64,000 nt of DNA from Zygnema cylindricum (taxonomy: Eukaryota; Streptophyta; Zygnematophyceae; Zygnematales; Zygnemataceae): assembly GCA_037447655.1 (NCBI GenBank), contig JBBHKE010002758.1, positions 1 through 64,000 on the forward strand. Reading direction: 5' to 3'. Positions within the stretch are counted from its first letter, which is position 1. Each line of letters opens with the position of its first letter. A program made the position numbers and the translations under genes. This document shows positions 3,524 to 64,000 of the stretch, piece by piece. The notes under the pieces are model-generated. The model worked only from the letters and a program-made list of their open reading frames with translations. It did not search any database and was not told the origin of the DNA.

Positions 3524-4069
3524 CTGTCGTAGAAGTCTGTTAGGATACATTAGGTTTGATAATTATATAAACACTGTTGAAACCATGATTCCGATTAACG
3601 CGATGACGAACGGAAGAACATAGAACCAATGTTATATAGTGCGAAGATTATCTCGCACGAAAACAAATGAATCGGACATTGTTTTCGAGGGCTGACATTT
3701 AATGTCGGATTTAATCCGACGGCGTGTATAAATGCCGAGATCGCAGAATGGTCACTTTGGCGTTTCTGGATGTGGCATGCCGTGGCGCCACGTGGAGGGA
3801 TGACATTTGGTCGCAGGAATTTCGAGAACATAAAGGCAAGTTAAAAGCGGACACGCGTCCACTCAATGGCGTTGTTGTATATAGGCCGTATAGAAAGTAC
3901 ATCGGTCATAGTACTTTTCTGATCCCTACAGTGATCTGATTGGTTCGTACTTCAATAGATAGGGGTACAGTGATCTGATTGGTTCGTATTTCAATAGATA
4001 GGGGTTGTGTGAGGGATTTAGGACTCACAGAATTTGGTAGATAGGTACCTCTCTCCCTTTGAGAGTTTG

Positions 4070-4076
4070 TATAAAA
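4070..4076 (+). promoter_or_regulatory. TATA box of Copia-A LTR promoter
   Basis: TATAAAA lies about 220 bp before the LTR end. The equivalent position reads TATACAAAA or TGTACAAAA in other copies. This is a plausible core promoter for the genomic RNA. Confidence 0.5.
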
Positions 4077-4272
4077 ATTGGCATTTTTGCCGGCTCATAA
4101 CTTATGGGCTGGTTGGACGTTTTCAGCGATTCTTTTTGCTATCGACTCAAAGGAGTCCAGGCTTCACAAGGGTGTAGTCAAATTCTTAATTTGCCATCTT
4201 GGGGAGCAGTGGTTGTGGCTTGAAGTGGGTTAGTTAAATACTATCTAGAGGCTTCCTTAATTCTGTTGTCCA

Positions 4273-5190
4273 ATGGAGGACACCGAATTGAAGATTATGG
4301 GCCCACCCTCTAGGGTGCCCACCTTCAATGGATCTAGGTTCATCTATTGGGAAGCCATGAAGATGGGAGCTCTATGCGAAAAACGATACTGGGGTATCGT
4401 CAATTGAGAAGTGAAACGTCCACCTTCGAGAACTCCACCAGGATTTGGAGGAGTAAGGTTTCTTGCAGCAACGGCTGCCTCAGCGGGGGAGGCGCTGTTG
4501 GGGACAGCAGTGTGTCCGAAAAAGGGAAAGGGAAGGAGACACCCCTCACTCTTATTGCCACATTACCGAGAGCGGCGAGCGTGAAGACCGCGGAGAACGA
4601 TACTCAAATGTGGGAGGATGTAAACAAAGCTGCCAATAACTTCATTCTGAGGCACTACACTCAAGCTTTGGTAACCCCTCATCTTCACATTTACAAGGCC
4701 GCGGAGTTGTGGGTGAGTTTGGTGGAGATTTATAGAGTTGAAACTATTCAAGAACTCTAGTTGGCTGAGCAAAAGCTAGTGAGTTACACTTACAAAGGAA
4801 GAAAGATGTTAGATTAGTGGAATGATCTTTCTTGTTTGTATATGGAGATGGAAAGTGCCAGGTGGACAAGTACAATGAAAATGACAGTTAACACCCTTAT
4901 TCTGCAGTTACCTGATGAGTTTGAGAACATAGTGTACCGAGTACAGGAAATGCCTGATAGTTCATGGAAATGGAACACAGTGGTCAGGATGATACTTGTG
5001 CATAAAAACACAATAAAGATTAAGAGAGGAGGAAAGAGCATTGAAGCTTTAGCAGTAGGGGGGGACCAATGGGGGGAGGACTCAAAGAAACCGTACAAAG
5101 TGGAAAGAGACCATTCTTGAGGACTGAGGCCCCCAAAGGGTCTTTGTCATTCTTGCAAAAAGTCGAACACTTCATCGCTGATTAGGTCAG
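4273..5190 (+). pseudogene. gag: Copia-A copy 1 gag (broken)
   Basis: Gag is the nucleocapsid precursor that packages the RNA. The frame can be read from ATG at 4273 inside the LTR, through the primer site, into the P-x-FNG-x-x-F-x-x-W motif typical of copia gag N-termini. The UBN2-like central domain follows (FILRHYTQAL near 4640, then LPDEFENIVYRVQEMPDSSW near 4910). Frame changes occur near 4405, a stop at 4758-4760 and another break near 5118. The zinc knuckle survives only as CHSCKK-like remnants. The N-terminal start is shared with copy 5. Confidence 0.8.
4293..4307 (+). other. primer binding site, initiator tRNA-Met anticodon arm
   Basis: The sequence GATTATGGGCCCACC directly follows the LTR and differs in one base from GGTTATGGGCCCACC, the complement of the anticodon arm of plant initiator tRNA-Met. 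A standard 3'-end primer site (TGGTATCAGAGC) is absent. Drosophila copia is known to prime from the same tRNA region. Confidence 0.8.
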
Positions 5191-8459: not shown

Positions 8460-9448
8460 TGTAATTCTGTGACCTCCATTGGTACATAGAATATCCAGCT
8501 TATGTGAAGCCCTTGGGATAGTATATGCACTTTTGACTTTGACAATGAATAAGTCTCACCCTGGGACCCAAAAACTCTGACCGACTATACCCCTATGTAG
8601 CGTGGACTCCCCTGAGTCCGCTGCAAAAAGGATCACTGAATTTGCTCACCTGAGCATTAAATTATGGCTGACCAAAGTTGGTCCATAAATACAAGTGCAC
8701 TCTGGGAGAGAGGCTGAAAAACCAAAAATATTCTAAGTCCTAAGCTACCTCTCTAAGCGTACTACTAAGGTACTTCGACCAATCATAAGACTGTAAAGTA
8801 CAAGAAGGTACAGGTACCGCTGTACTTCTAGTATGGCCATAGTACAGCATGGCCGTTCCGCTGACGCGTGTCAGATCAAGAACCGTAGTTGCTCTTTCGT
8901 GATATCTGCTATCCAGCCATATGTTGCCACATGTCATCTACCGACATCCTATCTGCAAACCGCCAAAAGGCTATTCCGCATTCCGGCTCCACTGTGAGCC
9001 GTTCGATCAAATCTGGACATTTGATTTCGTATGTCGAAATTAAATGTTAATTCGTATATTTAGTGCGCACCCGATTTCATACGGACCGGTATGTTTCCAT
9101 GCATAAATCGTCCCATAATTAGTTAAATGAAATATCCGGCGCGGCATAACTTTAGATAAATATGGCGCCATATGCATGCATCGATTTCTTCAAGACTTAC
9201 CAGAAAAGGCGCACGGTTGATCCGTATAGTCACCCTCAAGAGGTCACTTGTTCAAATCTCAAAAGGGGCAGTTACATTTTGCATAGAAATCTGTACGGAA
9301 TGATCTGCCTGTCTGATCTACCTGTCTCCTTTGGCTGCAGCAGGCAGCCATGGCAGCCATGGTTGTTTGCAGATCCTCAGTGACTACAACAAGTATGGGG
9401 GTGCAGTAAGTCCATAAGAAAAACTACAAAACACCTCTTTTTCAACTA
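8460..9448 (-). repeat. divergent Copia-A-type LTR, minus strand
   Basis: It starts TGTAATTCTGTGACCTCC, the reverse complement of a Copia-A LTR end, and contains GACTCCCCTGAGTCC, CTGAGCATTAAATTATGG, a GTAC cluster at 8785-8862, and a tRNA-like stretch around 9190-9270 with B-box-like GTTCAAATC. Its far end (CCTCTTTTTCAAC) matches the outer LTR ending at 23091, which marks a subfamily distinct from the ATTTCTACA-ending LTRs. No primer site or polypurine tract adjoins it, so it is probably a solo LTR. No target duplication is clear, and the right boundary is uncertain by some bases. Confidence 0.75.
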
Positions 9449-17431: not shown

Positions 17432-18480
17432 TGTAGAAACTAATGGTTTTATTAGTATTTTCTAGGTCTGAAAAGAAATATAGAAGTCGAGGCAGTCTAT
17501 CTCTAACTTCTCTCTCCAACTCTCAAACTTGTCGCAGTCACTGAGAAATTGGAGAGGAGGCTAGAGCCATGGCTACCTTGGCTATCCTGAGGTTTACGGG
17601 AATTTAATATTAGGGTTTATTAATTTATTTAAAAGGTATGTGCCGGCGGCAGGATTTGATCCTTGTACCTACTGGCCGGCAGACAGGAAATAGCCGGTAG
17701 CCTTAGCCGTTAAGTCTAGCCGTAGTGTTACGTAACATATAGTTTGATATTTATTTAAATGATTATACGTGCGATAAATCATTTAACTGAAATGGATTAC
17801 GGGATACATAGATCCAGTAATATATTATGTACGAATTACGGTACGGGCAAAAATCAGTACCGCACATTTATTTCGTAAGTGAAACAAATACCGCGCATGT
17901 ATTTATTACGGCTATGATTAAATCCGAATTTAATCGAACAGCCGGGATTAGCGCCGAGATCGCGGAGGAAGATTTCGGCGGTTTGTGGCCATCGCCACAT
18001 CGGATGACGCGTGGCAAAATTCCGTTGGATTGTGGAATCTTTGGAGATTATGGCACCGAATCCGGATTTGACATGTGTCGACATTTTGGCCATGTCGTAC
18101 AATGTCCGTACATAAAGTACACCGGCAGCTGTACTTTTGCGTACGAAACTCAATTCTGATTGGTTCCGTTCATCAGTAGATAGAGTCTGTGAGAGAGATA
18201 GGACTTAGAAAAATTAGAAGATAGGACCCCCTCTCCCAGAGAGCTTCTATACAAAAGGTCAACTTTGACCCTCCATAACTTACTGCTCAGGGGAGCAAAT
18301 TCAGAGATTCTTTTTGCTACCGACTCAGGGGAGTCTTACCTTTACAGGGTTGCAGGTGGTTAGGGCTTTTGTCCGCCAGGGTGGTAGTTGTTTTTTCTGG
18401 AACTTAAAGGGGTCAGGATTATCCTAGAGGCTTCTTGGAAGCTGTATACTCTGAGAACTTATGGAGGTCTCAGTGTTTCA
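17432..18480 (+). repeat. solo Copia-A LTR inside gypsy integrase
   Basis: 1049 bp from TGTAGAAACTAATGG to GGTCTCAGTGTTTCA. It is flanked by CAAAA (17427-17431) and CAACA (18481-18485), a 5-base duplication with one change. Gypsy integrase resumes immediately, as seen by alignment to copy 1 around 12150. It contains TATACAAAA and the palindrome GGTCAACTTTGACC at 18257-18270, and an antisense tRNA-like module at 17641-17720. No internal copia sequence remains, so it formed by LTR-LTR recombination. Confidence 0.93.
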
Positions 18481-21487: not shown

Positions 21488-22534
21488 TGAAACTCTGAGA
21501 CCTCCATAAGTCCTCAGAGTGGACAGCTTCCAAGAAGCCTCTAGGATAATCTTGACCCCTTTGTGTTTTAGCAAAAATAACTGCCGCCCTGGCAAATAAA
21601 AACCCTGACTACCTTCACCCTTGTGAAGGCAAGACTCCCCTGAGTTGATAGCAAAAAGAATCTCTGAATTTGCTCCCCTGAGCAGTAAGTTATGGAGGGT
21701 CAAAGTTGACCTTTTGTACAGAAGCTCTCTGGGAGAGAGGGTCCTATCTTCTAATTTTTCTAAGTCCTATCTCTCTCACAGACTCTATCTACTGATGTAC
21801 GGAACCAATCAGATTTCAGTTCCGTACGTAAAAGTACAACTGCTGGTGTACTTTATGTACGGATATTGTACGATATGGCCTAAATGTCCACACGTGGAGT
21901 ATCCGGATTCGCTCCTTAAATCCTCGGAGATGCCGCGCTCCAATGTTACATCGCCACGTGTCATCCGATGTGGCGCTGCCCACAAACCGCCGAATTCTCC
22001 TTCCGCAATCTCGGCGCAATTTTCGGCCGTCCGATTAAACTCGTTTTTGATCGTAGCCGTAATAAATACATGCGCGGTATTTGTTTCGCTTCCGAAATCA
22101 ATGCGCGGTATTGATTTCATATCCGTACCGCAATTCGTACTTTTACAATTCTATATCTATGTGTCCCGTAAATAGTTATAGTTAAATGAATTATCCAACG
22201 TGTACCTGTATAAATAATTATCGTACTATATACTACGTATCAGTACCTGTAGACTTAACGGCTAAGGCTACCGGCTATCTCCTAGCTGTTGGCCGGCAGG
22301 TACCAGGATCAAATCCTGCCGCCGGCATATACCTTTTAGTAATTAATCCGTAGACTAATATAAATTTCCCGTAAACCTGAGGATAGCTTAGGTAGCCATG
22401 GCTCTAGCTTCCTCTCCAATTTCTCAGTGACTGCGACAAGTTTGAGAGTTGGAGAGAGAAGTTAGAGGTAGACTGCCTCGGCTTCTTTGTTTCTATTTAG
22501 ACCTAGAAAATACTTAAAACCATTAATTTCTACA
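21488..22534 (-). repeat. solo Copia-A LTR nested in another LTR
   Basis: 1047 bp, from TGAAACTCTGAGACCTCC to ATTAATTTCTACA, with perfect TATAG duplications at 21483-21487 and 22535-22539. It carries the palindrome GGTCAAAGTTGACC at 21698-21711 and the tRNA-like module at 22251-22328. It is the youngest of three stacked insertions here. Confidence 0.94.
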
Positions 22535-38154: not shown

Positions 38155-39213
38155 TGAAACTATGTGACCTCCATAAGTCCTCAGAGTGGACAGCTTCCAA
38201 GAAGCCACTAGGATAACCCTGACCCCTTTGTGTTTCAGCAAAAATAATTGCCACCCTGGCAGACAAAAACTCTGACCAACTTCACCCCTGTGAAGAGAAG
38301 ACTCCCCTGAGTTGATAGCAAAAAGAATCTATGAATTTGCTCCCTTAAGCAGTAAGTTATGGAGGGTCAAAGTTGACCTTTTGTACAGAAGCTCTCTAAG
38401 AGGGAGGGTCCTATCTTCTAATTGTTCTAAGTCCTATCTCTCTCACAGACTCTATCTACTGATGTACGGAGCCCAATCAGATTTCAGTTTCGTACACAAA
38501 AGTACAGGTGCCGGTGTACTTTATGTACGGTCATTGTACGAAATGGCCTAAATGACGACACGTGGTATGTCCGGATTCGCTCACTTAATCCTCCGAGATG
38601 CCGCGATCCAATGTCATTCCGCCACGTGTTATCTGATGTGGCGATGACCACAAACCGCCGAAATCCTCTTCCGCGATCTCGACGTTAATTCCGGCCGTCC
38701 GATTAAATTCACATTTAATCGTAGCCGTAATAAATACATGTGCGGTATTCGTATCACTAAAGAATTAAACGCGCGGTATTGGTTTCTTATCCGTACCGGA
38801 ATCCGTACTTTTACATTTACTGGATATATGTCTCTCGTAATCAGTTACAGTTAAATGAACTATCCTACGTATAAATGTTTAAGTAATTATCAAACCATAT
38901 AGTACATAACACTACTCCTAGATTTAACGGCTAAGGCTACCGGCTACTGGCTGTCTGCCGGCCGGCAGGTACCAGGATCAAATCCTGTTGCCGGTACATA
39001 TCTTTTAGTAAATTAAACCCCTAACTAAAATATATTTTCCCGTAAACCTCTGGATAGCCTAGGTAGCCATGGCTCTAGCTCTTTCTCCAATTTCTCAGTA
39101 ACTGCGACAAGTTTGAGAAGTTGGAGAGCGAAGTTAGAGATAGACTGCCTCGGCATCTTTCTTATTTCTATTCAGACCTAGAAAATACTTTAAAAAGACC
39201 ATTTATTTCTACA
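38155..39213 (-). repeat. 3' LTR of Copia-A copy 3
   Basis: From TGAAACTATGTGACCTCC to TTATTTCTACA, followed by the polypurine tract complement CTCCCCTTATTTTC. It contains the same GTAC cluster, G-boxes, and tRNA-like module (38921-38996) as the partner LTR. Confidence 0.94.
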
Positions 39214-42940: not shown

Positions 42941-43564
42941 CGGGTAACTTCATCAGTAAACAGTTAACCTTTTATTTTTCACTAAAATCTTTTCCCGCAC
43001 TCTCTAGCTCATGAAGAGTGTAGCAAGCTCATAGTAAAAGTCCAACATCTTCCCCCCTTTGTATACATACTCCTTAACTTTCTGATCAGCCAACTGTTGT
43101 TGCTGAATCGTACCACTTCGGTACATCTCTATGAGAGCCATCCAAAGATCGGATGCCCTTTCTACCTGCAAATGAGGACATGCAAGTCCTTGAGTGAGAT
43201 GGCGTAGGATGAAGTGCTTTGACGCCATATTGTTGAAGTCCCTGGTTTTAGTATCATTCTCCTCGTTCCTCGGAATAGGTGACATGAATGCCGAACCAGT
43301 TGTTATTGGTGTGGTCGCCTCCTTCTCCTTTCCTTTGTCCACCACCTCTCGTTCTTTTGTTTCCTCCGTTGAAGGTGGATCCTCTTTTCTGGTGAATCTA
43401 TTTCCTCCAAACCCTGGAGGAATTCTATGACTTGATAGACGCCCCAACTTTCCACTCACTATCCCCCAAAACCTTTTTTCGCATAGAGCTCCTCCCATCA
43501 TACTTTCCAGTATATGAAGCCAGTTCCATTAAAGATTGGTACCTTAGAGGGTGGGCCGATAACC
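42941..43564 (-). pseudogene. gag: Copia-A copy 3 gag N-terminal half
   Basis: The 165-codon frame 43004-43501 contains GALCEKRFWGIV and FILRHLTQGLACPHLQVERASDLWMALIEMY, the UBN2-like gag domain. Upstream of its internal ATG the frame extends through IFNGTGFIYW to the primer site, so the true N-terminus is in the LTR. The LTR-encoded ATG is mutated to ATT in this copy and the primer-site ATG to ATC. A break at 42945-43004 separates it from the next frame. Confidence 0.88.
43550..43564 (-). other. primer binding site, initiator tRNA-Met anticodon arm
   Basis: Plus-strand GGTGGGCCGATAACC against GGTGGGCCCATAACC expected: 14 of 15. It abuts the 5' LTR with no spacer. Confidence 0.85.
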
Positions 43565-44623
43565 TGAAACTCTGAGACCTCAATAAGTCCTCAAAGTGGA
43601 CAGCTTCGAAGAAGCCTCTAGGATAACCCTGACCCCTTTGTGTTTCAGCAAAAATAACTGCCACCCTGGCAGACAAAAACACTGACCAACTTCACCCCTG
43701 TGAAGAGAAGACTCCCCTGAGTCGATAGCAAAAAGAATCTATGAATTTGCTCCCTTAAGCAGTAAGTTATGGAGGGTCAAAGTTGACCTTTTGTATAGAA
43801 GCTCTCTGAGAGAGAGGGTCCTATCTTCTAATTGTTCTTAGTCCTATCTCTCTCACAGACTCTATCTACTGATGTACGGAGCCTAATCAGATTTCAGTTT
43901 CGTACACAAAAGTACAGGTGACGGTGTACTTTATGTACGGCCATTGTATGACATGGCCTAAATGTCGACACGTGGTATGTCCGTATTTGCTCCCTTAATC
44001 CTCGGAGATGCCGCGATCCAATGTCATTCCGCCACGTGTCATCCGATGTGGCAATGACCACAAACCGCCGAAATCCTCTTCCGCGATCTCGGCTTTAATT
44101 CCGGCCGTCCGATTAAATTCACATTTAATCGTAGCCGTAATAAATACATGCGCGGCATTCGTATCACTAAAGAATTAAACGCGCGGTATTGGTTTCTTAT
44201 CCGTACCGGAATCCATACTTTTACATTTACTGGATATATGTCTCTCGTAATCAGTTACAGTTAAATGAACTATCCTACGTATAAATGTTTAAGTAATTAT
44301 CAAACCATATAGTACATAACACTACTCCTAGACTTAACGGCTAAGGCTACCGGCTACTGGCTGTCTGCCGGCCGGCAGGTACCAGGATCAAATCCTGTCG
44401 CCGGTACATATATTTTAGTAAATTAAACCCCTAACTAAAATATATTTTCCCGTAAACCTCTGGATAGCCTAGGTAGCCATGGCTCTAGCTCCTTCTCCAA
44501 TTTCTCAGTAACTTCGACAAGTTTGAGAAGTTGGAGAGCGAAGTTAGAGATAGACTGCCTTGGCTTCTTTCTTATTTCTATTCAGACCTAGAAAATACTT
44601 TAAAAAGACCATTAATTTCTACA
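43565..44623 (-). repeat. 5' LTR of Copia-A copy 3
   Basis: 1059 bp. Regulatory-looking content: palindrome GGTCAAAGTTGACC at 43775-43788, five GTAC words at 43874-43938, two CACGTG G-boxes at 43969-43974 and 44033-44038, and the tRNA-like module at 44331-44406. It directly follows the primer site. Confidence 0.95.
44331..44406 (+). other. tRNA-like foldable module in LTR
   Basis: It can fold into a closing stem TACCGGC (44348-44354) with GCCGGTA (44400-44406), seven perfect pairs; a middle arm CTGCCGGCCGGCAG (44365-44378); and a T-arm CAGGATCAAATCCTG (44383-44397) with a seven-base ATCAAAT loop resembling a B-box. A-box-like TAACGGCTAAGGCTACCGG precedes. A D-arm and anticodon are not clear. 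It is antisense to the element. Confidence 0.65.
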
Positions 44624-46173: not shown

Positions 46174-46188
46174 GGTGGGCCTATAATC
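46174..46188 (-). other. primer binding site, initiator tRNA-Met anticodon arm
   Basis: Plus-strand GGTGGGCCTATAATC, 13 of 15 against GGTGGGCCCATAACC. It abuts the 5' LTR of copy 2. Confidence 0.75.
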
Positions 46189-47221
46189 TGCAACTCTGAG
46201 ACCTCCATAGGTCCTCAGAGTAGGTAGCTCACACGAATCCTCTAGGATAACCCTGACCCCTTTGTGTTTCAGCAAGAATATCTGCCATCGTGACAGACAA
46301 AAACTCTGACCACCTTTACCTCTGTAAAGGCAATACTCCCTTGAGTGTATAGAACAAATAATCTCTGAATTTGCTCCCTTGAACAGTAAGTTATGAAGGG
46401 TCAAAGTTGACCTTTTGTACAGAAGCTCTCTGGGAGAAAGGGTACAATCTATCAAATTTTTCTAAGTCCTATCTCTCTCTAAAACTCATTCTACTGCAGT
46501 ACGGCACCAATCATAATACTGTGTCGTACAGAAAGGTACAGGTGCTGGTGTACTTTCAGTATAGCCATTGTACGAGATGGCCAACAAGTCGACACATGTC
46601 ATTTTTGGATTCGTTCATGTAATCTTCGGAGATGCCGTAATCCAATATGATTGTGCCACGTGTCAATCACTGTGACGTTGACCGCAAATCGCCGAAAACC
46701 TATTCCGCGATCTCGCCATGCTTCGCGGCCGTCTGATTAAGCCGGATTTCAATAGTAGCCGTCATAAACAGTTGCGCGATATTTGTTTTGCCTTCGAAAC
46801 AAAGTGCGCGGTATCCGTTTCGGATGATCCGTATGCTGTACAACACAAACTGTATTTATGTCCAAAATATCCCTTTAAATGAAATAGCCTACGTAAAAGT
46901 ATTTATATAATTATCAAACCATATATCGTATAACCTTGACCTAGTCTAATTGGCTAAGGCTACTGGCTACCGGTTGCTCTGACAGATGGCAGGTATTGGG
47001 TTCAAATCCGGTGTTCGTGAATCACTATTTTGGTAAATCTACCACTCTAACGTCTTTCCCGTCTGGATAGGATACGCGGCCATGGCTCTATCTCCAGGCT
47101 TCACGTGCCAATCGAACACAAGTGTGGGAGCTGGAGAGAGGAGTTAAAGGCAGACTGCCTCTGCTTCTTTTGTGCATTTTACAAAACCTAGAAAATACTA
47201 AAATAACCTTTAATTTCTACA
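46189..47221 (-). repeat. 5' LTR of Copia-A copy 2
   Basis: From TGCAACTCTGAGACC to TAATTTCTACA, 1033 bp, flanked on the right by TGGTT. It carries the best B-box of all LTRs (GGTTCAAATCC, 46999-47009) with A-box-like TGGCTAAGGCTACTGG (46951-46966). Confidence 0.93.
46946..47020 (+). other. tRNA-like module with strong A and B boxes
   Basis: TGGCTAAGGCTACTGG and GGTTCAAATCC are separated by 32 bases, matching the RNA polymerase III internal promoter layout of tRNA genes and SINEs. The flanking arms pair poorly, so a functional tRNA is unlikely. A short Pol III transcript antisense to the retroelement is possible. Confidence 0.6.
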
Positions 47222-52270: not shown

Positions 52271-54722
52271 GTAAAAATACATTTTTTCTATAGCTCTTTT
52301 GTTTCATACCGTTATTTTCGTGTTTCACTTCAATAAGTGCGAGATAGTAACATTAGTATGAGAGGGAGAGAGAAAGGGGTTCCTTCCCATTTATTGTTTT
52401 TGCAAAATGACCTCCATTGTTAGAGACCCATGCACAAAAGAAAATTCGTATAAGATGAAAATGGACAATTGAATAGTACGTACAAGTCGCAAACATACAA
52501 TTAGTTATTTTTTTGTGTACTCTGCGTTTTGCATAAATGTTTCAAAATTCACGCCTCGTGCAAAAAGATAAATCCTATTCGTAGTTCGATCGCTACTTTA
52601 AATAAAATTGCCTTTTGAGTGGCTTTCAAATAAAGTTTGACAATGAGGTGGAATGGCGTCGTATTGGGTTGAAAAGAGCAAGACGACAAGTTGTAATACA
52701 TTTTATTATTTAAAATGACAAAAAAATTACTAATGGTTTTTACAATTTTTTGTACAAGAAGGGATTTTATTGTTGCGGACTCTCTTTTTGACAAAAAGAT
52801 AAGAAAAAACCTTACTAAAAGATATGGGAATCTACCCTTTATTATTATAATTCATACATATAACAAACCAATCTGCAATTCACTGTCCGATATTCACATT
52901 ACACACACATCGTTTTCGAGCATCGACAAATTTTTGTGCTGTGAGACATACCCTTTAAGATAACAATATACGTGAGCAAACGTTGAAAACAAGAAAGCAC
53001 TCTAAGCTTTGTTATATGTCATCACACATAGCATCACATTATATCCTAAAATTGATGGTATTATAGGGCTCGGGACATAATTGGTTGGCCGGTGCAAAAT
53101 CACGCTGACACTCTGTGGGACTTCGTAAAAGTATACACCCATGTAAGTTTAATTCAACCATCAATTTTTCCTATGTATTAAAGATTGTTTGTACTACTGC
53201 GTGCATTGCTTTTAGTGAAAAGAAACACTCATTGTTATAAACTTTATTGTGGGTTCAGTGGCTATAAACTAACAAAACATTAACAGTAATTTACACATAT
53301 AGACATCCCCATCCAATAGCCATTGTAGCGAGTGTTCACATAATCGATGTTTAAACTTGAGAAACATGTTCGCACATAAGGGCTTTAAAATAATAAAACA
53401 TTAACGATGATTTACACATATACACATCCCCATACAGTAGTTGTTGTAGCGAGCGTTCACATAGTCGATGTTTGAACTTGTGAGAACATCTTCGCAAAAT
53501 TTTCCCCTATGTTTCATTATTACAAATAAAATCTGATGGTGTTGTCCGTGATAACGCCATTGGATTTTGGATGTCGACGTCCTTATCTGATACTGTTATG
53601 AGCCTTTTATAACCAACTAACGAGCAATTTTAGTGCATATTAACACATTCCACACGTCACGCTATTTAAATACCATGAACTAAAGCCTTTGATATTAATG
53701 AAACCGTATCTATAGTGTACCTTAGGTAAAAATAAGTAATAATAATTATATTTTATGTTCAATGGTCGTTAGTCGTCACTTAACGCGGAAAAAATCGTGG
53801 ATGCTACGTAATTTTGTGACTACGTAATACTCTTTCACGTCAAATTTATCACACGTTGTAGACATCTGTGTTTTTGTTTATTTTGAGACGTATATTTTAT
53901 TGTAGCTTGCACGCTATTGTTGTGGCCCTTGCCAAGTTCTTAGCCTTTTCGCCTCAAATTGTGGTGGATGCTATTTTAAACAGCTGAACCCTTTAGGTGG
54001 GAACGTTGTAGTTATCTCAAACGAAAATCATGTTACCAAACTATTTCAATTGGTGAGATAGTTATTGTTATATTGTTCGAATTGCTCAAAAGCCCACCTT
54101 TTTGTTGTTATAACATATATGTATTCCAAAATTTGTTTTAGCTAGAAGCAACATGTTATTGTTATTAACATTCCATTAAATTATCATTTCCCACCTTAAT
54201 TGTTTGTGGTTTTCAACTGGATGTGTTGAACCAAATAATTCGAACAATGTTCCTACTACTAATTTTATTGAAACACGCTTGTTATTGAGCGAGAAGTTAC
54301 ACATTCGAGCGACATTTTTTTTAAAAGACATAATACACAAAAGACGCAATTGGTATATTTACATATATTGTATAGGAGAAATTACTTTAGAATTTTGTAT
54401 ATAATTGTGTTTGTCAGATATTTGAAGTTAAGAGATAAAAAATTCCACATTTGAGATTTGCTGCAATATGCACTTATTATTATTTGTTCGACATCAAATT
54501 CGAGTGCACAAAAGTACATTGGCAAATGCAATCATAGATATCACCTATTTTCAACGTGTAAATCGGTTCACATCGACTTTATTTTTGTGGAGTAGGGGGC
54601 GTATACAGATATGGGTTGGGTTGTGCTTTCTACTCTTGATTTTTAGGAAATATAATAGCTGTATGCCTAGTTTTTTGTCTTTTTAATCCTCAAGTTTGAA
54701 GTTTTATTATAAAACCATTTTC
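52271..54722. other. unassigned A+T-rich DNA
   Basis: No coding frame with a recognisable domain. Short frames such as 54204-54404 look like chance. It contains the tandem repeat at 53274-53500. It could be the remains of a DNA element or host intergenic DNA. Confidence 0.4.
53274..53500. repeat. two-copy tandem repeat, unit about 121 bp
   Basis: AAAACATTAAC, then TTTACACATATA, ACATCCCCAT, TTGTAGCGAG and GTTCACATA-TCGATGTTT occur in order in both copies (53274 and 53395). Copies differ at about one base in eight. Confidence 0.75.
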
Positions 54723-55734
54723 TCCAACTTTGAGACCTCCATTGGTCCTCAGAGTAGGCAGCTCACAAAAAGCCCCTAGGATAACCCTGACCCCTTTGTG
54801 ATTCAGCAAGAATAACTGTCACCTTGGCAAACAAAAAATCTGACCACTTTCACCCCTTTGAAGACAAGACTCCCCTGAGTCGACAACAAAAAGAAATTCT
54901 GAATTTGCTCCCCTGAGCAGTAAGTTATGAAGGGTCAAAGATGACCTATTTGTACAAAAGCATTCTGGGATAGAGGCTGCCTACCTCAGATTTAACTAAG
55001 TCTAAAACCCCTCGCTAGTCCCTTTACTACTAGCGTACGGCACCAATCAAAACATTGTGTCGTAGAGAAAGGTACCGGTGTTGGAGTACTTTCTGTACGG
55101 CCATTGTGCTAAAAGAGGTGACGTGTGCCACATCCGCACTCGCTCTAAAATTCTTGGAGATGCCGCTAGCAAATGAGATGTCGCCACGTGTCCCTTGATG
55201 TGGTGGTGATCGAAAACCGCCAAAAATTCCACTCCGTGATATCGGCTCTTATCGTGGCCGTCCGATAAAAGCCGACTTTTAATTCTAGCTGTTGAAACAA
55301 ATGTGCGATATATTTGTTTCGTGCGGTACTATTATCCGTACTATACATAACCTATTCTATGTTCTACAAATCTGTTCACTCGTTAAATGTAATTCCTAAC
55401 TTGTTTACCTTTAAGTAGTTATCGTACCCTATATATCTCAACAATGGTCTTAGACTATAAGATAAAGCTAAAGGCTACTTTGACGCACGGTAGGTACCAC
55501 GATCTATTCGTGGGTCCGTCAATCCTTTTGGTAAATCTACCAAGGATCTGCTGTCTGTCTCTCTAGAAAGCTTTAGGCAACCATGGCTCTAGCTCCCTCT
55601 CTAGCCTTCAGAGTCTACGACAAGTGTGGGGGTTTGAGAGAGGAGTTAGAGGCAGACTGCCTCTGCTATTTTCCTGCCTTTATTTTACAAGTTTCAAACC
55701 TATAAAATATTAAAAGAAAACATCAGTTTCTACA
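54723..55734 (-). repeat. Copia-A LTR, minus strand
   Basis: From TCCAACTTTGAGACCTCC to CATCAGTTTCTACA. Flanking bases TTTTC (54718-54722) and TTTCC (55735-55739) could be a mutated target duplication of a solo LTR. Alternatively the purine tract complement TTTCCCCCCCCTAAG at 55735 onward is a polypurine tract and a short internal remnant follows (55745-55785 resembles 34600-34640), making it the 3' LTR of a truncated element. The tRNA-like module is at 55444-55520. Confidence 0.85.
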
Positions 55735-59591: not shown

Positions 59592-60647
59592 TGTAGAAAT
59601 TAATGGTTCTTTTAGTATTTTCTAGGTTTGAACTTGTAATAATAAAATGCAAAAAAAAGCAGAGGCAGTCTGCCTCTAACTCCTCTGTTCAACTCCCACA
59701 CTTGTCGCAGACACTGAAGGTTAAAGAGGGAGCTAAAGCCATGGCTGCCTATGCTGTCCAGAGAGAGATAAGCAGAAGTTTTGGTAGGTTTACCAAAAAG
59801 GTACTTGACAGACCCAGGATTTGATCCTCGTACCTGTTGTCCGCCACAGTCGTCAGTAGCGGTTAGCTTTGTTTTATAAGTCTAGGACCAGTGCTGAAGT
59901 ATATAGGGTTCGATAATTATTTAAATATGTACACGTAGATGAATCCATTTAACGGGGGCAATAGATTCTTAAGACATAGATAAGGTTAGTATAGTAAAGT
60001 TTATAGTACTTCGCGAAACGAATACCGCACATTTTTTTAGACGGCGAAACAAATACCGCGCATTTATTTTTGATTCCTAGAGTTGAAAGTCGATTTTAAT
60101 CAAACGGCCACGATAGGTGCCACGATCGCGAAATATGCGTTTTGGCGGTTTTTCAGGCACCGCCATATCAAATGACAAGTGGCACAACCTCATTAGTTTA
60201 CGGCATCTCTAGAGAATATGGGAACAAATCCGGATAAGGCATGCGTCGACATTTTGGCCATGTCGTACCATTTTTGTACAAAAAGTACTCCGGCACCTGT
60301 ACCTTCTCTACGACACAATATTGTGATTGGTGCCGTAATGTTGTAGTAGAGGGTTTAGAGAGGGATTTATACTTAGAAAAATTGGTAGGTAGCCGCCTCT
60401 CTCCCAGATTGTTTGGGTACAAAAGGTCAACTTTCACCCTTGATGACTTACTACTCAAGGGAGCAAATTCAGAGATTCTTTTTACTATCAATTCAAAAAG
60501 GTCATGTCTTCACAAAGTTTTAGGTAGTCAGTGTTTTTTTCTGCAGGGTGGCACTTATTCTGGTTGAAACTCAAAGGGGTCAGGGTTATCATAGGGACTT
60601 CGTGTGAGTTGTCAATTCTGAGGACCTATAAAGGTCTCACAATTGCA
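59592..60647 (+). repeat. 5' LTR of Copia-A copy 4
   Basis: 1056 bp, TGTAGAAATTAATGG to TCACAATTGCA. The antisense tRNA-like module is at about 59800-59890, and CAAAAGGTCAACTTTCACC lies near 60420. The gag-start ATG found in sibling LTRs reads ATA here (60628-60630). Confidence 0.94.
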
Positions 60648-60662
60648 GGTTATGGGCCCACC
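60648..60662 (+). other. primer binding site, initiator tRNA-Met anticodon arm, exact
   Basis: GGTTATGGGCCCACC, 15 of 15 against the complement of the plant initiator tRNA-Met anticodon arm. It directly follows the LTR. Its internal ATG (60652-60654) is in frame with gag. Confidence 0.9.
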
Positions 60663-62227: not shown

Positions 62228-63221
62228 TGGTATTTTATATTCTATTTTGTTTGTTGATGGTCTTGCTGTAGTCCTCATACTTATCGTAGTCACTGAGGAC
62301 TAGCAGTCCTGATACTTTTCGTAGTCAATGAGGACTTGCATGCAGCCATGACTACCCCATGAAGACAATGAAATAGACAGAGAGGAACAAAAGACCCAGC
62401 TCTTGCAAAAGATGGAAGGACAGGACCAGGATTTGATCCTGTGACCTCCTAGATAAGACGCGTACTGCATAGCCGTTCGTCTTATCTGTTAGGTCTTGAT
62501 ATTGTTAAAGTATATTGGGTGTGATTAATATATTACGAAATGGCATATTTCATTTAATAATTTGCGAGACAAATTGAACATGGAAAATGTATCGGTATGC
62601 ATGAAATCCGGATCGCATGGAATGTACAAAATGACATTTAATTTCGATGGGCGAAATCAAATGTGCCTATATGATCGAACAGCTCACAAAGGAGTCAGTG
62701 TATCGGAGTGGACTTTTGGCGGTTTGCGGAGCAGATGTCGGCGGCTGACACATGGCGAGTAATTATAGGGCAGCGGATATTACGGGGGGAGCAACTACGG
62801 CTCAAGAACTGACACACGTCAGCGGAGCGGCCATGCTGTACTATAGCCGTACAATAAGTACACCGATACCTGTACCTTTTTATAACTTACAGTCTATTGA
62901 TTGGCCAGGTACACTAGTAGTAGCTTGAGAGAAGGAGTTTAAGACTTAAAAAAATTTAGGTTTCTGCCCCTCTCGTAGAGTGCAACTATATTTATAGGCC
63001 ATCTTTCGCTAGCCACAACTTAATGCTCATGTGAGCAATTTTAGTGATTCTTTTTGCGGCACACTAACGCGAGTCTAAGCTACACAAGGGTGTTGCTGGT
63101 CAATGTTTTTTGCGTTCCAAGGTGACACTTATTCATTGCTAAATTCAAAAGTGTACATATTATCTTAGAGGCTTCATATAAGTTCGACATTCTGTGGACC
63201 AATGGAGGTCACACAATTACA
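62228..63221 (+). repeat. 5' LTR of Copia-A copy 5
   Basis: It ends GGTCACACAATTACA at 63221. The start is placed at TGGTATTTTATATTC by homology to the copy 1 LTR and is uncertain by a few bases. The segment CGTAGTCACTGAGGACT is duplicated at 62274-62334. The antisense tRNA-like module is at 62418-62505 (AGGATTTGATCCTG). TATATTTATA lies at 62988-62997. ATG GAG GTC at 63202 is the proposed gag start. Confidence 0.85.
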
Positions 63222-64000
63222 GGTTATGGGCCCACCCTTTAGGATGCCCATTTTTAATGGAACATGGGTCATATACTAGGAGACCATGATGAGGGGTGCA
63301 TTGTTTGAAAAACGGTTTTGGGGCATTGTGACTGGTCGTGTGCGTCGACCAATCGCAAAATTTGGAGTTTCACCAAGGTTTCGAGGATCTAGATTCACAA
63401 GAGGATTTGCGGAGGTAGAGGTGGTAGAGGATGTTGGAGAAAGCATCGTGTTTGACACTAAAAGGAGAATGGGAAGGAGAAACTCACACCAATGGCTACT
63501 AGATCGGTTCGAGTAGCAGATGTTTAGAAAATCGAGGAAATTAATACTGAAATTTGGGATTTCAACAACACCGTGGCAACTGATTTTATTTTCGGGCGTC
63601 TCACTTAAGCACTTGATACACCTCATCTTCATGTGGACAGGGCGGACGAGTTGTGGGAGGCTTTTTCCAACATTTACAAGAGCGGTACCATCACTAGCAG
63701 AAGCTGGCAGATTAGAAGGTACAAGTATATGTGTACAAAGGGGGAAAGATGTTAGACTTTTGTAATGACTTGGTCGGGTTATTTATGGAGTTGGGGAGTG
63801 CATGAAAAAGGAAGATCGAGAAAGAGAAGGTGGATACTTTGTTGAAAAACTCCCAGATGATTATAAAAACATTATTAACATGCTTAACGATTTGCCAAAT
63901 CATCGATGGATGTGGAATTTCGTTGTGGGGATGATTTTGGTTTGGGAAAGCACAAGTGAGATTTGGAGAGGAAGAAAGAGTGTACGAGCATTGGCTGGTG
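63202..64000 (+). pseudogene. gag: Copia-A copy 5 gag, partial
   Basis: The frame opens at ATG 63202 in the LTR, crosses the primer site, and gives MPIFNGTWVIY with a stop (TAG at 63277-63279) in the FIYW motif. GALFEKRFWGIVTGRV follows from 63298. Further breaks lie at 63514-63516 and around 63765. The gag middle (MLDFCNDLVGLFMEL, LPDDYKNIINMLNDLPNHRW) is recognisable across frames up to the window end. Confidence 0.83.
63222..63236 (+). other. primer binding site, initiator tRNA-Met anticodon arm, exact
   Basis: GGTTATGGGCCCACC, 15 of 15, immediately after the LTR. Confidence 0.9.

Follow-up and report, generated by a model that had tools for sequence, protein, structure and literature searches.

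A gag reading frame that probably opens within the long terminal repeat and crosses a half-tRNA-type primer site in Ty1/copia elements of Zygnema cylindricum

Ty1/copia elements of Zygnema cylindricum carry a primer site of the half-tRNA-iMet type directly adjoining the long terminal repeat (LTR), and their gag gene probably has its start within the 5' LTR, with the frame continuing across that site. The frame across the primer site is real and widespread, and is translated either through the site or from within it. In the mechanism proposed here, the 5' end of the transcript would lie upstream in the LTR, and ribosomes would pass along a leader containing few ATGs and initiate chiefly at the AUG they meet first, located 20 nt before the LTR end (position -20; -26 in family B). 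The primer site would then encode V-M-G-P close to the Gag N terminus, and its own AUG, the complement of the tRNA anticodon CAU and codon 9 of the frame, would provide a back-up or alternative in-frame start. In the main family (family A), the first AUG lies within the loop of a stem-loop at the LTR end, a structure presumably kept for priming, packaging, or control of the start site. The analysis covered a window, by which is meant the whole 64,000-nt stretch that was analyzed (positions 1 to 64,000 of contig JBBHKE010002758.1, assembly GCA_037447655.1), together with the 353-Mb assembly.

Element copies and LTR ends in the window

Two copies within the window display the complete arrangement. 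In copy 1, the 3' part of the 5' LTR spans 3705..4292 on the plus strand, as delimited by the junction and by a blastn match to the LTR piece of locus L008 (75% identity over positions 492-1045 of that piece), and the LTR ends at 4292, where the terminal CA reads AA. The primer site (GATTATGGGCCCACC, half-tRNA-iMet type, 4293..4307, plus strand) adjoins the LTR, and its ATG at 4297-4299 forms codon 9 of a frame that runs from the LTR ATG at 4273 to a first stop at codon 45 (4273..4407, plus strand, by translation). Similarly, copy 5 carries an LTR ATG at 63202, a primer site GGTTATGGGCCCACC at 63222..63236, and a frame of 63202..63279 that stops at codon 26 (all plus strand). The first-pass annotation had noted in both copies an ATG that precedes the LTR end by 20 nt and is in frame with gag through the primer site, and this description holds for each (MEDTELKIMGPPSRVPTFNG in copy 1, MEVTQLQVMGPPFRMPIFNG in copy 5): the LTR ATG shares its frame with the primer-site ATG at codon 9 and also with the P-x-FNG motif of gag. 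A stem-loop whose loop contains the LTR ATG is located at 4260..4288 in copy 1 and at 63189..63217 in copy 5 (plus strand), the hairpin register being taken from alignment A2 and, in copy 1, transferred by position from the LTR end. With frames that stop this early, copies 1 and 5 are dead, and the remaining window copies examined are degenerate. The window gave no Rfam match at the gathering score.

Copy 4 (plus strand; stem-loop at 60615..60643, primer site GGTTATGGGCCCACC at 60648..60662) had been described as a copy in which an in-frame TGA leaves the primer-site ATG as the first start. The primer-site ATG is indeed first, but the reason lies elsewhere: the triplet at -20 is ATA (60628-60630), and it is the loss of this ATG that leaves the primer-site ATG in first place, while the TGA (60619-60621), found within the 5' arm of the hairpin 9 nt upstream of the ATA, is not the cause. 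A TGA at this site is shared by 22 of 26 relatives of copy 4. A correction is likewise needed for the codons that an annealed primer was said to cover (codons 8-13), as the 15-nt site begins with the last base of codon 7 and ends with the middle base of codon 12.

The LTR-end word ATGGAGGTC occurs eight times in the window where shuffled sequences lead one to expect 0.30, and seven of the eight occurrences lie at LTR ends (the exception being 52409-52417), in agreement with the earlier observation that the word is kept there. LTR ends that carry the word and have no adjoining primer site are found at 8460..8479 (a solo LTR or fragment), 21488..21507, 38155..38174, and 54723..54742 on the minus strand and at 18461..18480 on the plus strand. 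Two further minus-strand copies have changed primer sites: one at 46174..46208, in which the LTR end reads ATG GAG GTC and the primer site TTATAGGCCCACC, and another at 43550..43584, in which ATT replaces ATG and the primer site reads TTATCGGCCCACC.

The GGTTATGGGCCCACC site directly follows the LTR both in the window copies and in the assembly-wide pattern described below, and presumably fits the anticodon arm of the plant initiator tRNA; its two initial G residues would pair with tRNA positions 39-40. Assignment of these elements to the Ty1/copia superfamily (Pseudoviridae) is indicated by protein domains matched piecewise and not along one whole element: in loci L006 and L008, Retrotran_gag_2 and Pol_BBD scored above cut-off and zf-CCHC_2 and gag_pre-integrs below it, all in one frame, while rve and RVT_2 scored above cut-off in pieces of the window. 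The Ty1-like 5' layout, consisting of a gag-frame AUG inside the LTR and a primer site inside the gag frame, was found as well.

The frame across the assembly and in diverged families

A search pattern, TRCARGTTATGGGCCCAC, that fixes the primer site and the last four bases of the LTR identified 2496 places in the 353-Mb assembly (1250+1246 on the two counts), as compared to 4 (3+1) for the reversed control. Among the first 80 of these places as listed, which served as the junction sample, 68 carry an ATG exactly at -20, and in 63 the frame from this ATG is also free of stops as far as the primer-site ATG. The first-pass annotation would have been overturned had most intact copies carried stops or frame changes between the LTR ATG and gag; of the 36 sampled copies in which gag is open for 90 codons, however, 31 retain both the LTR ATG and the frame and five do not. 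Longer frames exist, as three of the first eight similarity matches (L005, L006, and L008) are open for at least 529 codons, to the end of the sequence examined. In L006 and L008, a TATA-like word is present at -221.

Defects of the LTR start are shared within two pairs of loci, L055/L059 and L115/L128, which might represent small lineages that have spread without an LTR start; the members of the second pair both carry ATA together with a TAA at codon 5. A wider subfamily defined by TAA at codon 5 was considered and rejected, the stops being scattered on the tree and lying mainly on terminal branches.

Additional families are revealed when the primer site is followed by a base other than C, a configuration found at 993 places versus 4 in the control. 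Forty-eight of the places listed were sampled, 20 in list order (skipping two already sampled) and 28 hand-picked for variety, and within this sample, which is not random on account of the hand-picked places, an open in-frame ATG lies no more than 40 nt before the primer site in 28 of 48 (23/40 and 5/8). Of the 20 places at which such an ATG is missing, nine belong to family D and four to family C; the others are L170, L183 (a family B copy with a stop), L196, L201, L204, L206, and L212.

The most uniform alternative arrangement is that of family B, grouped by us on LTR ends, where the ATG is situated at -26, ten codons before the primer-site methionine, in all 23 rows, L102 among them, and in 22 the frame is open as far as the primer-site ATG. 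In 21 of the 23 rows, the -26 ATG is separated from the primer-site ATG by an out-of-frame ATG at -10. Families E (L195) and F (L197), each known from one copy, have a -20 ATG in frame with a gag-like N terminus, and these N termini are quite different. Family G (L209) was withdrawn as support: its -20 ATG lies in the frame of the primer-site ATG, and the gag-like motif in another.

Families C (L188, L202) and H (L212) contain no in-frame ATG in the 50-70 nt examined upstream, and the gag frame is open over the entirety of that sequence (70 and 50 nt, respectively), with stops in both other frames of C and in one other frame of H. Because the frame stays open throughout, the start in these families may lie deeper in the LTR; family C was accordingly dropped as an example of gag lacking an LTR start, L188 and L202 being open over 70 nt. 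In the gag frame, the LTRs of L188, L202, and L212 read a Ser/Gly/Thr-rich extension (AGASVTPSGSG..., TSGSATSGS...), which suggests that the Gag N terminus is encoded further inside the LTR in these families. Two other members of family C, L177 and L178, have one common stop in the LTR end.

The nine copies of family D (L165, L184-L187, L189, L190, L199, L210) display neither an in-frame ATG in the LTR end examined nor a gag motif in the 60-130 nt after the primer site; in eight of the nine, the LTR end contains just one ATG, located at -49 and out of frame, while 50 nt were covered in L210. A hairpin (GGTCTATTTTAGACC; its length in L210 is 16 bp) closes the LTR of this family beside the half-tRNA site. 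Family D possibly consists of non-autonomous relatives that would have kept the structure and not the start codon.

With regard to genomic arrangement, four family B primer sites (L172-L175), all oriented alike and spaced at about 3.5 kb, lie at G000:C23:324506-335376 and may form a tandem array, and close groups of pattern places on C63, C73, and C90 may likewise be tandem arrays of elements.

Selection, the LTR-end stem-loop, and the choice of AUG

Whether the primer site is translated was approached through patterns of change on a tree comprising 157 junctions, of which 79 came from the 80 listed places and 78 from similarity matches, using parsimony counts that are crude on a tree of decaying copies; repetition of the tests on 155 rows, after removal of two doubly entered loci (L007/L140 and L066/L116), led to the same outcome. 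Over gag on the 157-row tree, codon positions 1, 2, and 3 changed alike on terminal branches (765, 745, and 754 changes), while on internal branches the third position changed most (261, 232, and 413). For codons 13-97, 395 nonsynonymous and 309 synonymous changes were counted on internal branches versus 1268 and 404 on terminal branches (p=6e-21, 155 rows). Within the short segment of codons 13-28, the corresponding counts in the gag frame were 44/48 internal versus 184/78 terminal (p=2.2e-4, 155 rows), and the other two frames gave p=0.29 and 0.64; with the duplicate loci retained (157 rows), these values were 2.4e-4 for the gag frame and 0.28 and 0.89 for the others. Codons 13-28 are thus under purifying selection in the gag frame only. 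As these codons precede the next methionines, translation must start at the primer-site AUG or upstream of it, and since 56 of 60 main-family rows have an in-frame stop no more than 15 codons ahead of -20, the frame could rarely start before -20. The start in the main family is therefore codon 1, in the LTR, or codon 9, in the primer site, and in either case at least part of the primer site is translated. That much of the original proposal, in which gag is read through the primer site, appears well supported by the frame-specific selection on codons 13-28 and by the gag frames of other families that are open into the LTR; that translation begins at the LTR AUG is likely.

The LTR end itself is structured. 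In an alignment of 55 ungapped LTR ends (54 of the 60 first fetched and one more from L056, 48 of them distinct; six of the 60 were excluded for indels or other registers), an 11-pair stem surrounds the ATG-bearing loop. Of its cells, 90% are paired versus 78.5% in shuffles; nine of the 11 pairs are changed on both sides in some row, versus 5.0; double-changed cells number 58 versus 22.3; and the covariation score is 0.341 versus 0.151. None of 500 shuffles reached any of these four values, and 11 of 500 reached the number of pair types, though these controls flatter the stem, the rows being related and the stem having been drawn from the same rows. When the stem was slid by 1-3 columns, at most 54% of cells were paired, with no more than 6 pairs and a score no higher than 0.136. 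RNAalifold predicted only the three top pairs of the A2 stem. In the main family, a covarying stem-loop thus adjoins the primer site and carries the LTR AUG in its loop, a feature that is new here. Codons 2-6 make up the 3' arm, opposite a noncoding 5' arm, so that switches between Asp and Val at codon 3 and between Thr and Ser at codon 4 are matched by compensating changes upstream.

LTR ends labeled c1, c4, c5, and L106, as well as those of families B and D, fold better than shuffles, and those of families C, E, and F and of L006-471 and L056-2812 fold no better; given the result for C, E, and F, the stem-loop is a family-level and not a lineage-wide feature. The family B stem has 97.9% of its cells paired but only one double change, a value reached by 63 of 500 shuffles, and its covariation is for this reason uninformative. 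Much of the conservation of the LTR-end word is explained by the covarying stem-loop and cannot be read as coding alone, and coding constraint was accordingly rejected as its sole cause. The stem-loop as sole cause is not favored either: the -20 ATG persists in E and F, where no fold exceeds shuffles, and family D has a hairpin and no in-frame ATG. By analogy with Ty1 and retroviral structures, a role of the stem-loop in priming or start control would be the favored one.

The evidence bearing on the choice between the two AUGs is mixed. The purifying selection that the first-pass annotation expected on the upstream codons failed to appear: codons 2-8 accumulated 19 internal and 59 terminal nonsynonymous changes versus 13 and 30 synonymous changes (p=0.52, 155 rows), and with duplicate loci kept the result (20/59 versus 13/30, p=0.67) again gave no sign of selection at the amino-acid level. 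Losses of the start and gains of stops within codons 1-8 were not significantly depleted on internal branches (4 internal and 26 terminal, versus 32 and 89 other changes; p=0.16, 155 rows), the four internal events being in part parsimony artifacts that were kept in the count (one node reconstructed as ATA has mostly ATG descendants); a separate count at the LTR ATG gave p=0.24 by one measure and 0.07 by another. The 130 nt before the LTR ATG contain 29 ATGs in 60 related rows, versus 85.3 (sd 6.7) in shuffles, and a downstream control was not depleted (210 versus 184.8). Within the loop, A at -20 and G at -17 are present in 54 of 54 rows, T at -19 in 53, and G at -18 in 48. At -18, the third base of the LTR ATG, G-to-A change is unusually frequent (13 terminal, 2 internal), with 3 changes at the neighboring G of -17 and 1 at that of -15. 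Judged by start context, the primer-site AUG, with G at -3 and +4, looks better than the LTR AUG, which usually has C at -3, and an AUG placed within a hairpin loop may perhaps be poorly recognized during scanning.

These observations allow for a reading in which gag starts at the primer-site AUG and the LTR ATG is a by-product of the stem-loop, giving at most a minor, N-terminally extended form. Such a start at codon 9 would account for the absence of amino-acid selection on codons 2-8, the stronger context of the primer-site AUG (the invariance of which is imposed by the search pattern), the five of 36 open-gag copies that lack the LTR start or its frame, and a conserved LTR end that the covarying stem-loop goes far to explain. 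It is nonetheless unlikely, as a scanning ribosome would meet the LTR AUG first after a leader depleted of ATGs, and as the loop ATGG is nearly fixed around a stem in which nine of 11 pairs change on both sides in some row. The other families point the same way: E and F have the -20 ATG and no significant stem-loop, the gag frame of C and H is open further upstream, and 21 of 23 family B rows interpose the out-of-frame -10 ATG before the primer-site ATG. An initiation of gag translation at the LTR AUG, and not at the primer-site AUG, is therefore the likely course.

Two further explanations depart more widely from a start within the LTR. The final LTR bases of such elements are constrained, and the LTR-end word could in principle be conserved for DNA or RNA reasons only, such as integrase recognition or a priming or packaging hairpin, with the continuity of the frame being coincidental; the covariation of the stem-loop and the LTR ends that fold above shuffles (c1, c4, c5, L106, B, and D) are as this reading would have them. 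We consider it very improbable, because the frame-specific selection on codons 13-28 requires translation to begin no later than codon 13, where the only in-frame AUGs of family A are codons 1 and 9, and because family D retains a hairpin and no in-frame ATG in the LTR end examined. More improbable still is translation from another site, by internal entry or from a spliced RNA that reaches the primer-site frame otherwise: the lack of an in-frame ATG in the 50-70 nt examined of families C and H would suit it, yet nothing found requires it, and, as 56 of 60 rows have a stop just ahead of -20, an unspliced RNA has the two AUGs already considered. A gag frame that opens in the 5' LTR and continues across the primer site remains the probable arrangement.

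A start in the LTR carries with it the proposition, already part of the first-pass annotation, that translation and priming would be mutually exclusive. It is possible, if rather doubtful, that the AUG-bearing stem-loop and the half-tRNA site together act as a switch, whereby ribosomes would melt the stem and cover the site, while annealing of the tRNA fragment would shut off both AUGs simultaneously and commit the RNA to reverse transcription. Since a half-tRNA-iMet site must contain an AUG, the complement of the anticodon, the lineage would under this proposal have been forced to build the Gag N terminus from the primer site.

Relation to known elements and implications

The closest parallel is the Ty1 element of Saccharomyces. 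It is described as having an RNA with a 53-nt 5' UTR and a primer site at nt 95-104, inside GAG and preceded by the GAG AUG, and a "TIPIRT" domain in which start codon, primer site, and structured RNA overlap, and with them the signals for translation, packaging, and priming (PMC5454406). The elements of Zygnema resemble Ty1 in having an AUG in the LTR before the primer site and structured RNA in the same 5' region. Several differences can be noted. Ty1 is primed from the 3' end of the initiator tRNA and encodes pol in the +1 frame (PMC7175516), whereas in Zygnema gag and Pol_BBD share one frame of at least 529 codons (L006, L008), gag continuing into the protease region in the same frame. In addition, where the Ty1 site corresponds to the tRNA 3' end, the site described here presumably matches the anticodon arm (half-tRNA), and its AUG constitutes a second in-frame start.

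Half-tRNA-Met primer sites have also been described in plants, in Osser, Bryco, and part of Gymco-II (PMC6317226); the likeness to these elements is one of primer-site type only, namely a half-tRNA-Met-complementary site beside the LTR. Similarly, the Hemivirus group (Drosophila copia, 1731, Ty5, Osser) would share the half-tRNA primer type, its members being primed from nucleotide 40 of the initiator tRNA (PMC1181622, PMC5371799), and Ty5 is reported to encode a single polyprotein (PMC7175516).

Compared with retroviruses, the Zygnema arrangement is partly familiar. The U5 stem-loops of retroviruses lie immediately 5' of the primer site, and retroviral gag begins downstream of that site. The Zygnema stem-loop likewise adjoins the primer site but differs in carrying the first gag-frame AUG.

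The suggestion that such a layout is unusual was not contradicted by literature searches: among the matches listed, which consisted of open-licence papers represented by titles and the starts of abstracts, no copia element was named in which an LTR gag start crosses a half-tRNA site. Its components are already known, the Ty1-type layout from PMC5454406 and plant half-tRNA-Met sites from PMC6317226, and it is their combination that is a variant not named in those matches.

The present elements form a very abundant lineage, with 2496 pattern places in a 353-Mb assembly, and provide an overlap comparable to that of Ty1 with a different primer. How the RNA of a retroelement is apportioned between translation and reverse transcription is still debated, with Ty1 as a leading model, and the diverged families described here permit comparative tests. 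If gag is annotated from the first ATG that follows the LTR, the true N terminus of the protein could be overlooked. Half-tRNA-iMet sites always carry an AUG, and elements that possess them must consequently use that AUG, read through it, or tolerate an upstream start.
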